Shown here one piece after another: positions 1,202-13,353 of a DNA stretch of 15,419 bases (within the stretch, counting starts at the first letter, position 1; the number at the start of each line of letters is the position of its first letter). The notes beneath the pieces are model-generated. The model ran no database searches. It was not told where the DNA came from and saw nothing but the letters and a program-made list of their open reading frames with translations. The position numbers and the translations under genes were made by a program. Source of the DNA: Sphingobacteriales bacterium (lineage in GTDB: Bacteria > Bacteroidota > Bacteroidia > Chitinophagales > Chitinophagaceae); assembly GCA_023251215.1 (NCBI GenBank), contig JAHEZF010000012.1, positions 1 through 15,419 of the forward strand, given 5' to 3'.

Positions 1202-3175
1202 TTAGTCTTCTATCCGTTTTAATTTGAGACTGGTTACCGGAGCTACAATCAGGGGGAACTTTTCCACTGTAACGTTTGCTGTATCCAGGCCGAAGCCTTT
1301 TTCTTCTGAAAGACTTCTTTCTTTGAGCCAGAAATGGAATTTCATGATGATGCGTTCGAAAAAAGGAAGTTCGTTATCCTGGCTCAGATATTTTTCCATC
1401 ACCATGAATTGGAAGTCGCCAACTGTATTGCTGCTTGCCAGGCTCTCGTAACGGCTTGCAATGTTCACTTCTTTATTCGCAACGAGATCTTCTACCACTT
1501 TGCGGAACATCAGGTTGATACGTGGCTCCATGCGGAAACCCAGCCTGAAGTCAATCCGGATAATATCATTGGGAATGATATGTTCCACCTTGTACTCACA
1601 AGTATAGGGGTCGTCCAGTGTATCCACATGAACAAACCAGTAGATGTCGGATCGTTTCGGCTTTTTATTTAAAATGGAATAAATGATCTTATGCTCGATT
1701 TCTTTGGGATTATTGGCGCTGGTCAGGTAAACGAGGTGAGTAGCATATTTGGGAACGGATTTATCATTACTCAGTTCCTGAATTTTTGGGAGATAATGTT
1801 CCAGCCTCACAAACTCAACATAACGATTTTTAATCTTCCGGCTCCTGTACCAGATATACATGATCAGGAACATAAGCCCGCCAACAAGCAAAGTAATAAA
1901 ACCGCCGTGTACAAATTTTTTCATTAACGCTGCCAAAAAGCAGGTTTCAACAATGAAATAGACTGTCAGAAATATATATATCCAGAGGGAGCGAACACGG
2001 CGCAGTACCAGGTAATTGGCAAACAATATTGTAGTCATTAACATTGTTACAATAATAGCTAACCCATACGCTGCTTCCATATTGGAAGACTTACGAAAGA
2101 ACAAGACGATTCCTGTGCATCCAATAAACATTAAGACACTGATGGCAGGTACAAAAAGTTGGCCTTTTTCTTCAGAGGGGTACCTGATCTTTAATTTGGG
2201 CCATAAATTAAGTCGCATAGCTTCACTGATCAAAGTAAAAGCTCCGGAAACCATAGCCTGGCTTGCAATGATTGCAGCAGAAGTAGCTATAATAACTCCG
2301 GCAATTATGAACCAATGAGGCATGAGGTCAAAAAAAGCATTTATACCTAATGCCTTTTTGACCACATCGGTGATTTGAAGACCATTATGATGAGCCAATA
2401 AACTAGCTCCTTGTCCAAAATAATTGATCAGCAGGCAGGTTTTGACATATATCCATGAAATACGGATATTTCCACGGCCACAGTGTCCCAAATCACTGTA
2501 TAAGGCTTCTGCACCAGTGGTGCACAAAAAAACCGCTCCCAATAACCAAAAGCCCTGCGGATAATTTTTTAAAAATTCAATAGCATAATATGGGCTCAGT
2601 GCCTTAAAAATTGAAAGGTCATCAAGTAAATGGGCAGCGCCAAGTACTGCCAGCATTGTAAACCAGGTAAACATTATCGGACCGAACATTTTACCGATAG
2701 ATGCTGTACCAAACTGCTGCATGAAAAAGAAAATAGCAAGGATTGCAAGAACTATGATTACAATGGTATCAGTGGTCATGCCATGCAATACCGGTAATTC
2801 ATCCAAACCTTCAATTGCAGAAGTGATCGAAATCGGGGGAGTGATCATACCATCAGCGAGCAATGCACCGCCTCCAATCATGGCCGGTATCACCAGCCAT
2901 TTTTTTCTCCTCCTAACGAGGGCATATAAAGCAAATGTGCCCCCCTCACCACGGTTATCAGCCCTAAGGATAAGGATTATATATTTTATTGTGGTCTGTA
3001 AGGTAAGTGTCCAGATGATGCAGGATAAACTGCCAAGAATCAGTTCTTCACTGATAACTCTTCCGCCAATGATCGCATTGAAAACATAGAGTGGTGATGT
3101 GCCAATATCTCCGTAAATAATTCCCAGTGCTACTATCAGTCCAGCAATGGTGACTTTGTTCGTCGGTATTTTCAC
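1202..3175 (-). CDS. kup: KUP/HAK/KT-type potassium uptake transporter
   Basis: A 657-residue protein of typical Kup length (E. coli Kup is about 620). The family hallmark GIIYGDIGTSPLY lies at residues 18-30, with the conserved aspartate at position 23, GEGGTFALYAL at 76-86 and TPPISITSAIEGL at 112-124 with the conserved glutamate at 122. About twelve hydrophobic segments fill roughly residues 8-445, followed by a soluble C-terminal domain of about 200 residues facing the cytosol. Known role: secondary K+ uptake coupled to protons, in the inner membrane. The start is GTG at 3175: the upstream frame reaches a stop at 3206-3208 with no ATG, and the hallmark sits at the usual distance from the start. 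No Shine-Dalgarno sequence is evident. A Bacteroidota-type promoter and a palindrome-bearing leader of about 100 nt lie upstream. The hydrolase gene follows on the same strand. Confidence 0.95.
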   Translation of the reverse strand: MKIPTNKVTIAGLIVALGIIYGDIGTSPLYVFNAIIGGRVISEELILGSLSCIIWTLTLQTTIKYIILILRADNRGEGGTFALYALVRRRKKWLVIPAMIGGGALLADGMITPPISITSAIEGLDELPVLHGMTTDTIVIIVLAILAIFFFMQQFGTASIGKMFGPIMFTWFTMLAVLGAAHLLDDLSIFKALSPYYAIEFLKNYPQGFWLLGAVFLCTTGAEALYSDLGHCGRGNIRISWIYVKTCLLINYFGQGASLLAHHNGLQITDVVKKALGINAFFDLMPHWFIIAGVIIATSAAIIASQAMVSGAFTLISEAMRLNLWPKLKIRYPSEEKGQLFVPAISVLMFIGCTGIVLFFRKSSNMEAAYGLAIIVTMLMTTILFANYLVLRRVRSLWIYIFLTVYFIVETCFLAALMKKFVHGGFITLLVGGLMFLIMYIWYRSRKIKNRYVEFVRLEHYLPKIQELSNDKSVPKYATHLVYLTSANNPKEIEHKIIYSILNKKPKRSDIYWFVHVDTLDDPYTCEYKVEHIIPNDIIRIDFRLGFRMEPRINLMFRKVVEDLVANKEVNIASRYESLASSNTVGDFQFMVMEKYLSQDNELPFFERIIMKFHFWLKERSLSEEKGFGLDTANVTVEKFPLIVAPVTSLKLKRIED

Positions 3176-3216: not shown

Positions 3217-3234
3217 TCCCAATAGCTATCGGGA
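3217..3234. repeat. Palindromic element copy in kup leader (one mismatch)
   Basis: TCCCAATAGCTATCGGGA, an 18-bp copy of the element found four times in uvrA, with one change (A for G at 3221). Read on the minus strand, which is the kup transcript, the change becomes a G.U pair, so the RNA can still fold along the whole element. It is flanked by TTAGC at 3206-3210 and again at 3235-3239, which might be a short target duplication but could be chance. Confidence 0.75.
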
Positions 3235-10429: not shown

Positions 10430-10440
10430 TTGTGCCTATA

Positions 10441-13353
10441 ATGGAAAAGACAATAAAAGGGAAGAATCCCGCTAAAAAAGAGACCGTAAATTCCGCAAAT
10501 GGCATTCTTATTAAGGGTGCCCGGATGCATAATCTGAAGAATATAACTGTGGAAATACCCCGGAATAAACTTGTCGTGGTGACAGGGGTATCAGGTTCCG
10601 GTAAATCATCACTAACCATTGACACCTTATATGCAGAAGGCCAGCGCCGCTACGCAGAAAGTTTAAGCGCCTATGCCAGGCAGTTCCTGAACAGGATGAA
10701 TAAGCCCGATGTAGATTATATCAAAGGCTTATGTCCTGCTATTGCCATTGAGCAACGTGTTATTTCAAGAACTCCCCGAAGCACGGTAGGCAGTATGACA
10801 GAGATCTATGATTATCTGCGATTGTTATTTGCCCGCATCGGTAAAACCATTTCACCGGTTTCGGGGAAGGAAGTAAAAAAAGATGATGTGACAGATGTGC
10901 TGGATGCTATTACTAAATTAAAAGAAGGTAATTCGGTTTACATTCTTGCTCTTTTTAAACAACATAAGAACAGAAACATTAAAGAAGATATGAATATCCT
11001 GCTGCAAAAAGGATTTAGCAGGATGTATGTGGATGGGGAGGTATTAAGAATAGAAGATGAATTGGCTAATGAAAAATCTGCAGCACATAAAAAGACCAAC
11101 TCGAAATATATCCTTATTGATAGAATTGTGATAAAAGCCCCGATAGCTATCGGGGTTGATGAGGATGACAAGCACAGGATTGCCGATTCAATCAGCACTG
11201 CCTTTTATGAGGGTGAAGGAGATGTTTACCTGGAAGTACAACCAGCTCCCGATAGCTATCGGGACAACAACCAGCTCCCGATAGCTATCGGGACAGCAAC
11301 CAGAAACCAGCAACTGCTTCACTTCAATAACCGGTTTGAAATGGATGGGATAAAGTTTGAAGAACCGGTTCCCAATCTTTTTTCATTCAATAATCCTTAC
11401 GGAGCCTGTCCCACTTGTGAAGGTTTTTCGCAGGTGCTGGGTATAGACAGCGACCTGGTAATTCCGGACAGGAGATTGAGTGTATATGAAGGCGCCGTGG
11501 CCCCATGGAAAGGAGAAAAACTTGATTGGTGGAGACAGCAGTTTGTTAAAGGGGCTAAGAAATTTAATTTCCCGATACATAAACCTATAGCTGACCTGAC
11601 CGACAAACAATATAAAACACTCTGGCAGGGGAGCGATGCGGTATATGGCATCAATGATTTTTTTAAAGATGTTGAACAACAGCTTTACAAAGTTCAGTAT
11701 CGTGTTTTACTGAGCCGTTACCGGGGTAGAACACAATGCCCCGATTGCAATGGGTATCGTTTACGCAAAGAAGCTTTATATGTAAAAATAAATGGCCGCC
11801 ATATTGGCGAACTTGGTGAATTACCGGTAAAAGATCTGATGAAATGGTTTAATACTTTGGAGAATAAACTAAGTGAACACGAAAAACAGGTAGCCAAAAG
11901 AATTCTTATTGAAATACATCTCAGGCTGAAAACATTGTTAAGTGTTGGCCTCGGTTATTTAACCCTGAGCCGGTTAGCCAATTCGCTCAGTGGAGGAGAA
12001 AGCCAGCGTATTCAACTCACACGGAGTCTGGGCAGCAATCTTACCAACTCACTGTATATACTTGATGAACCCTCTATCGGGTTACATTCAAGAGATACTG
12101 CCAATCTGATAAAGGTTTTAAAAGAATTAAGAGATCTGGGAAATACGGTTGTTGTTGTGGAGCATGATGAAATGATGATGCGGCAAGCCGATCATATCAT
12201 TGATATGGGCCCGCTGGCCTCTCATCTTGGCGGAGAAGTGGTAGCCGAAGGGAATTATGATGAGATTATTTCCAATCCTGAATCTCTTACCGGAAAATAT
12301 CTGAAAGGAGAACTGAAAATTGAACCACCGAAAATGGTTCGCAAATGGAACAGAGCTATCAGGGTGGAAGGAGCGAGGCAACATAACCTGAAAAATATTA
12401 CAATTGAATTTCCTTTAAATGTTTTGTGTGTGGTCAGCGGGGTAAGCGGCAGCGGCAAAACTACTTTGGTCAAACAAATTCTTTATCCTGCATTAAAAAA
12501 GATCAAAGGAGACCCGATAGCTATCGGGTTTGCTGATAAAGTAGGTATGCACAAAGTTGTTTCAGGTGATATTGAAAGTATTTCACAGATAGAAATGGTA
12601 GATCAAAATCCCATCGGCAAATCATCGAGAAGCAATCCTGTTACTTATATTAAAGCGTATGATGAAATAAGAGATCTTTTTGCCAGGCAACCATTGAGTA
12701 AAATGCGTGGCTTTCAGCCCAAACATTTTTCATTTAATGTGGATGGCGGACGATGCGATACCTGTAAAGGCGAGGGAGAACAGGTGGTTGAAATGCAGTT
12801 TTTGGCCGATGTACACCTGACCTGTGAAGTTTGTGGCGGAAAAAGATTCAAAGAAGAAGTGCTGGAAGTGCAGTACAGGGAAAAAAATATTTATGATGTG
12901 CTGGAGATGAGTGTGGATGAAGCCATTGTTTTCTTTTGGGATGAAAAAAACTTAGTAAAAGCTATCCAGCCTCTTAGCGATGTAGGATTAGGATACATTA
13001 AATTGGGACAATCATCTACAACACTTTCCGGCGGCGAAGCGCAGCGGGTTAAGCTTGCCTCTTTTCTCAGCAAAAGCAGAAGCACAGAAAAAATTCTTTT
13101 CATCTTTGATGAACCAACAACCGGCCTGCACTTTCATGATATAAAAAAACTGCTTATTTCTTTTAATGCACTTATCGAACAGGGACATTCCATCATCGTC
13201 ATAGAACACAATATGGAGATCATCCGAAGCGCTGATTGGGTGATAGACCTTGGCCCCGAAGCAGGGGATGGCGGCGGAAACCTTGTATATGCAGGAAAAC
13301 CTGAAGGGCTTAAAAAAGAAAAATTGAGCTGGACAGGGAAATTTTTTCGCTGA
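10441..13353 (+). CDS. uvrA: Excinuclease ABC subunit A (UvrA) with palindrome-encoded inserts
   Basis: A 970-residue UvrA from the ATG at 10441 (a GTG at 10432 would add three residues but probably precedes the transcript start). Walker A motifs GVSGSGKSS (49-57) and GVSGSGKTT (667-675), signatures LSGGESQ (516-522) and LSGGEAQ (862-868), and Walker B segments [10 protein letters not shown] and [10 protein letters not shown] show two intact ATPase modules. The second zinc module is complete (Cys772, 775, 795, 798). The first has only GACPTC (Cys323, 326); the preceding pair is replaced by a [12 protein letters not shown] stretch, as I recall for Bacteroidota UvrA. Known role: the UvrA dimer finds bulky DNA lesions and loads UvrB in nucleotide excision repair. 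Four copies of an 18-bp palindrome lie in frame, encoding APIAIGV (233-239), APDSYRD and LPIAIGT (within 267-291), and DPIAIGF (691-697). All fall near expected loops and leave the catalytic motifs intact. Confidence 0.95.
11138..11155. repeat. Palindromic element copy 1 in uvrA
   Basis: CCCCGATAGCTATCGGGG, a perfect 18-bp palindrome. Outside it the next two flanking pairs can also pair in RNA (G.U, then A-U). It is read in the PIAIG frame (APIAIGV). Confidence 0.9.
11247..11264. repeat. Palindromic element copy 2 in uvrA
   Basis: TCCCGATAGCTATCGGGA, a perfect 18-bp palindrome, read in the PDSYRD frame. First half of the 29-bp tandem duplication. Confidence 0.9.
11276..11293. repeat. Palindromic element copy 3 in uvrA
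   Basis: TCCCGATAGCTATCGGGA, identical to copy 2 and starting 29 bp after it, but read in the PIAIG frame (LPIAIGT). Confidence 0.9.
12512..12529. repeat. Palindromic element copy 4 in uvrA
   Basis: ACCCGATAGCTATCGGGT, a perfect 18-bp palindrome with the outermost pair A-T instead of T-A or C-G. Two further flanking pairs (G.U, A-U) extend the possible RNA stem. It is read as DPIAIGF, between the second Walker A motif and the second zinc module. Confidence 0.9.

Follow-up and report, generated by a model that had tools for sequence, protein, structure and literature searches.

Tiny dispersed hairpins called SDR elements were reportedly described by Elhai et al. in 2008 in Nostoc-type cyanobacteria, where compensatory changes are said to keep the arms paired. 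These elements reportedly measure 21–27 nt, are often embedded in heptameric tandem repeats, and insert precisely. We know of no mover for them. Sections of PMC3116915 treat this cyanobacterial group, and sections of PMC4390886 report that SDR5 inserts precisely into HIP1, a highly iterated perfect palindrome of cyanobacteria (GCGATCGC). In excerpts of PMC3733652, Rickettsia palindromic elements (RPEs) are described as inserted palindromes that functional proteins carry and translate in frame, and both REPs and RPEs are reported inside genes. The same excerpts list REPs in two uvrA genes of O. terrae and in uvrA of Thioalkalivibrio, so that there is precedent for hosts among repair genes.

The palindromes analysed here were found in the window, that is, the whole stretch of 15,419 nucleotides under study, which contains the following features.

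10432..13353, plus strand: uvrA ORF of 973 aa (from the ORF list), host of four copies
11138..11155, no strand: uvrA copy 1, 18-bp palindrome, outer pair C/G, reads APIAIGV, net +15 bp relative to 26 of 29 relatives
11247..11264, no strand: uvrA copy 2, 18-bp palindrome, outer pair T/A, reads PDSYRD
11276..11293, no strand: uvrA copy 3, 18-bp palindrome, outer pair T/A, reads LPIAIGT
12512..12529, no strand: uvrA copy 4, 18-bp palindrome, outer pair A/T, reads DPIAIGF
11239..11319, plus strand: CAACCAG-type heptamer tract in uvrA, holding copies 2 and 3 (from sequence and alignment)
3217..3234, no strand: degenerate copy with one mismatch, lying 43 bp upstream of kup, a minus-strand ORF at 1202-3175

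Exact 16-mers (CCCGATAGCTATCGGG) start at 11139, 11248, 11277 and 12513, all within uvrA, and the flanks there extend every one of them to an 18-bp palindrome with complementary outer pairs. This bears out the claim of the earlier note that four perfect 18-bp palindromes lie inside the gene. The fifth palindrome that it placed upstream of kup is present at 3218 (CCCAATAGCTATCGGG) but is not perfect, as it has one mismatch. By chance such sites are rare: with up to three mismatches allowed, the mean over dinucleotide shuffles was 0.03, and none of 200 shuffles gave five or more. All four uvrA copies are open in the uvrA frame, PIAIG being read three times and PDSYRD once, so that the claim of frame-keeping copies that add these peptides also held. 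Residues 23-972 of the UvrA ORF align with the UvrA structures 3pih and 2r6f, and the sites were located through this alignment. A search of plasmids with uvrA returned distant uvrA matches only.

At a hand-estimated 0.08 copies per uvrA-sized gene (from 55 copies in 2.02 Mb), four copies in one gene are striking. Two of the four share one heptamer tract, however, and if only three events are taken as independent and the gene number is assumed to be 1,700, the excess becomes modest. The region of this tract is variable among relatives in the alignment. The tract at 11239-11319 is itself translated and forms an addition to that variable region.

The host genome is a fragmented MAG of 2.02 Mb in 345 contigs, 72% complete. 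It holds 55 exact copies of the 16-mer and none of the reversed control, and the palindrome is therefore commoner than chance genome-wide, contrary to the first refuting outcome that the earlier note had named. The host DNA studied in detail comprised 121 contigs (796,081 bases) and covered 51 of the 55 copies, which fall within 61 of these contigs. Exact copies were found in 31 of 195 same-family genomes, the host included, with 1 to 55 copies each, and were absent from the other 164. Copy counts are unequal within genera, for example 37 and 0, or 1 and 10. A looser pattern (CCCGATNNNNATCGGG) matches 170 of 392 phylum genomes. Many of these have one match or two, about the background rate by hand estimate; high counts occur in a few genomes, such as 56 in G529 and 85 in the host. 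At least 117 stretches from named genomes carry the element, and among the matches listed in that scan, 79 of 80 titles name Bacteroidota taxa, with cultured Flavobacterium, Mucilaginibacter and Pedobacter among the carriers. A further 42 stretches from viral contigs also hold it. The identical exact 16-mer thus recurs across the phylum.

The repeated unit has the form B-CCCGAT-AGCT-ATCGGG-B', a perfect palindrome of 18 nt in which the loop varies, as does the outer pair, whose two bases are complementary. The outer pair is complementary in 217 of 226 copies (50/51 in the host set, 121/128 in the named set and 46/47 in the viral set) and occurs as T/A, C/G or A/T, while the next pair outwards shows no enrichment. 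Of 58 host palindromes with this 14-bp core, 47 end at 18 bp. Besides AGCT, loops such as AATT, AACT and AGCC were seen, among others. The host DNA studied contains 13 words with two changes, in 20 occurrences; four of these words, with 10 occurrences, are self-complementary, against about 1 in 45 expected by hand estimate for random double changes. The remaining 9 of the 13 are not self-complementary, some being altered in the loop only. Arm pairing is thus often kept through double changes. The outer pair also varies with context, in that all 13 host copies with an A/T pair lie in ORFs of at least 130 aa and T/A copies lie both inside and outside such ORFs. We observed that A/T-paired host copies often read D-PIAIG-W or D-PIAIG-F (e.g. 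L018, L041, L047 and 12512-12529 of the window), and that intergenic host copies almost always have a T/A pair.

Comparison of filled and empty sites showed that the element enters new sites and that relatives differ in whether a given site holds it. At UvrA site 11139, exactly five residues are missing in 26 of 29 same-family relatives, the other three lacking three or four; at site 12513, 26 of 29 again lack exactly five and the others three or four. This agrees with the proposal that a translated palindromic element was inserted repeatedly in uvrA. The tag peptides had been considered as possible conserved UvrA residues, which the 29 same-family relatives rule out: the second refuting outcome named in the earlier note, residues conserved without the palindrome, did not appear among them. 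In one relative, the empty form GGAGA-G-TTTGCTGATAAAGT corresponds at site 12513 to the filled form GGAGA-[16-mer]-TTTGCTGATAAAGT, one base having been swapped for sixteen.

Other proteins gave similar results. Among the best 120 of 8,000 scored GpmI proteins, the query included, five residues are missing at the site in 108, and the other 12, including the host protein, are full length, with peptides either intact or decayed (e.g. PMAIG, PIVTG). Because the carriers include decayed peptides, the GpmI insertion is old, and some copies of the element are accordingly old as well. In MqnC, 109 of 120 proteins are five residues shorter at the site. HisS proteins, whose stretch is variable here, are six residues shorter in 87 of 120, seven in 14 and five in 7. 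MurC has a five-residue gap relative to both PDB sequences shown, and the PDB alignments of GpmI and AroA have gaps five to seven long close to the site. NCBIfam assigns families to nine proteins carrying in-frame copies. Several of these host proteins are usually essential, and their conservation suggests that the palindrome-bearing proteins work. At the one intergenic orthologous site examined, in Flavobacterium, 9 of 10 relatives (of 114 matching genomes) are empty and one is filled. The filled relative has a compensated variant (TTCCGATAACTATCGGAA), with a net gain of 10 rather than 15.

To determine what is replaced, the joined flanks were compared by BLAST with the collected loci, which comprise 254 distinct sites, and 39 gave an empty match. 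The replaced length was 3 nt in 14 of the 39, the commonest value, with the other 25 ranging from -4 to 6. Where the best match lay in the same locus, 3 nt were replaced in 11 of 18 sites and other lengths in 7 of 18, as follows.

Same-locus sites with 3 nt replaced: L019, L197 (twice), L206, L208, L235, L238, L240, L269, L280, L292
Same-locus sites with other replaced lengths: L077, L080 (twice), L150, L160, L209, L403

A periodicity test that uses the flanks only, and is independent of reading frame, compared the bases across the insertion as if 3 nt had been lost. Flank bases match at distances 7, 14 and 21 (z 6.4, 6.1 and 8.2); since other distances reach up to 3.7, part of the background is shared composition. 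The peaks are found in the host (z 5.4, 5.8, 6.1) and the named set (3.4, 4.8, 4.7), and the viral set has no period-7 peak (2.1, -0.8, 1.8). Identity at period 7 reaches at least 65%, a threshold set without a control, at 12 of the 51 sites in the host and at 12 of the 128 in the named set. A 4-bp target-site duplication had been considered, and its signal is real; it is accounted for by heptamer tracts minus 3 nt, because period 7 less 3 nt gives 4. The element leaves no target-site duplication.

The commonest class is therefore a replacement of 3 nt by 18, a net gain of 15 bp, and the rule has exceptions. It explains the 29-bp spacing of uvrA copies 2 and 3 as 15 + 2 x 7, that is, 15 + 14. 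Another genus of the family has the same arrangement in its AnmK gene (anhydro-N-acetylmuramic acid kinase), where two in-frame copies, reading PDSYR then PIAIG, also lie 29 bp apart. With a net gain of 15 bp the reading frame survives by arithmetic; of the three phases, one contains TAG, and in the other two the ORF is kept in frame.

These properties allow a comparison with the described systems, among which the SDR group of cyanobacteria appears to be the nearest analogue. As in SDR elements, the hairpin is supported by compensatory changes and is embedded at some sites in heptamer tracts, here in both the host and named sets. It is set apart by description, being 18 nt long, fully self-complementary and in Bacteroidota rather than 21-27 nt long and cyanobacterial. 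It differs also in the many copies within conserved ORFs of this host and in the usual 3-to-18 replacement measured here. As with RPEs, a palindrome is inserted in frame in ORFs (UvrA, GpmI, MqnC, AnmK); unlike RPEs, it has its host in Bacteroidota and not in Rickettsiales, and the added peptide most often has five residues. The view of the earlier note that the element behaves like an RPE with a different sequence and a shorter length is consistent with this in-frame reading, the distinction being drawn from the descriptions of RPEs. The element appears to work like RPEs and SDR elements, and we do not claim membership in either. Its literal sequence, in four forms, was not found in the open-access PMC papers searched.

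Copies differ in their surroundings. In the host, the share inside ORFs of at least 130 aa is 29 of 51 sites, versus 0.86 for random positions; in the named genomes it is 13 of 130, versus 0.78. Outside this host, in other Bacteroidota, the copies are thus mostly non-ORF. One RNase P RNA gene of Cyclobacteriaceae (L172:4440-4846; Rfam RF00010, 246 bits) has the palindrome near its 3' end. By reading of the sequence, partial tRNA copies with the palindrome in the D-arm part were seen at L019:7844-7910 (Leu), L052:3115-3160 (Leu), L235:6270-6350 (Arg) and L240:6070-6130 (Phe), and an intact tRNA of the same kind, without the palindrome, lies within about 0.6 kb of each fragment. A tRNA search of the flanks rejoined without the element detected two tRNA-Met genes only (viral sites L265 and L285); the fragments, which are recognised by their intact neighbours, went undetected. 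In L030, L020, L055, L160 and L197, copies stand amid other dispersed phrases, e.g. CCCTTCGACA...CAGGGTGAC; these phrases resemble additional short interspersed repeats of Bacteroidota.

Insertion into hairpin loops had been suggested by eye as a general rule, which the share of such sites rules out. A flanking stem scoring at least 6 was present at about 6% of host and named sites versus about 1% with re-paired flanks, and at 6% versus 3% in the viral set. As targets, then, hairpin loops are either preferred or at least tolerated, without being the rule.

A patchy hairpin micro-element of Bacteroidota, located in genes and in non-coding DNA, is real and more widespread than the earlier note stated. 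We consider it probable that it is a non-autonomous mobile hairpin, a judgement that covers its mobility together with the usual +15 rule. An enzyme acting in trans, or a replication or repair reaction, would recognise the folded single strand (DNA or RNA), and the recognised hairpin would be written over a few target bases. Purifying selection may then clear most genic copies, sparing surface loops tolerant of PIAIG or PDSYR. We put forward the trans-acting single-strand step tentatively.

The alternatives that survive best concern the mover only and are compatible with mobility itself. Replication slippage or template switching between hairpins, without any dedicated mover, could overwrite short loops with the stem-loop of another copy, as a kind of hairpin gene conversion. 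The share of sites enclosed by a flanking stem, about 6% and above the re-paired control, would fit, as would the location of copies in heptamer tracts and tRNA fragments; the arms also remain complementary after double changes, an outcome expected of quasi-palindrome correction. However, a flanking hairpin to prime the exchange is absent at most sites, and the recurrence of the exact 16-mer across the phylum needs a sequence-specific step. We regard slippage as unlikely.

Somewhat less probable still is that the element belongs to the ordinary REPs and that a RAYT (a Y1 HUH transposase) of the same cell mobilises it in trans. The element is a short dispersed hairpin without target-site duplication, and the listing of REPs in other uvrA genes in the excerpts of PMC3733652 agrees with such an origin. 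The corresponding family PF01797 is found in 144 of 195 family genomes and, by hand tally, in 27 of the 31 carriers. Yet it had no match in the host genome (72% complete) or in G047, which has 32 copies and is 83% complete. The element is absent from all seven RAYT neighbourhoods (about 2.3-3.3 kb each) taken from copy-rich relatives, and three of the seven contain hairpins whose loops read CGTAG or CTACG. In G073 and G164, for which all copies are listed, two of three RAYT contigs have no copy and the only copy on the third is 17 kb away. In G079 the nearest copy, among the matches listed, is 6.5 kb from the RAYT. At least 117 named stretches hold the element, and the 117 examined contained no RAYT ORF. 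A GTAG or CGTC tag, on either strand within 8 nt, is present at 36 of 181 sites versus about 40 expected for random flanks by hand estimate.

By the neighbourhood and tag tests made, the element is not a RAYT-type REP. Judged by the excerpts of PMC3733652, it resembles GTAG/CGTC REPs in being a short palindrome with some copies in DNA-repair genes and, in the named genomes though not in this host, with most copies outside ORFs, and differs from them in showing no tag excess, in being shorter than 20-40 bp, and in that no RAYT association was found. The RAYT genes at L103, L109 and L418, which belong to this family, have other hairpins beside them, with CGTAG or CTACG as the loop; these are probably the RAYTs' own REPs. 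Eight or more PF01797 matches of equal score were seen in G188 and G115; these are probably active IS200-like elements.

A site that selection maintains for protein binding or methylation, in the manner of HIP1, would also be palindromic and far above chance. This reading is very improbable, because whole units are present or absent, most often with a net +15 bp, because the exact 16-mer is missing from 164 of 195 family genomes, and because copies lie inside translated conserved genes and RNase P RNA. Compared with HIP1 as portrayed in sections of PMC4390886, the element is longer, adds length by insertion and is patchy among relatives. Least credible of all is a minimal MITE, in which an insertion sequence has lost its interior and its terminal inverted repeats have fused: two such repeats joined head to head could form a perfect palindrome, and the half-site TCCCGATAG is over-represented (14 versus 2.7 in shuffled letters, in 0.8 Mb of host DNA), but 796 kb of host and 841 kb of named DNA contain no inverted 9- or 10-bp half-site pair within 3 kb and one 8-bp pair, and target-site duplication is absent.

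We return to the reading of a non-autonomous mobile hairpin. Put in full, and with a confidence below even, it would mean that a self-spreading hairpin of 18 nt is shared among Bacteroidota, and that an undescribed reaction, specific for its sequence and acting on single strands, overwrites about three target bases with it. Because the carriers include the cultured genera named above, this could be tested in the laboratory. The usual net +15 bp explains how such units can lie inside the conserved UvrA, MurC, GpmI and MqnC genes and remain translated. The element offers a compact system in which to test how tiny bacterial repeats that lack a gene of their own move. If the reading is true, the 18-nt hairpin would be among the smallest mobile units known. 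Its usual net +15 bp would let it enter essential genes without breaking them, making it a natural source of five-residue loop insertions, and would give proteins a further way to acquire short surface loops.
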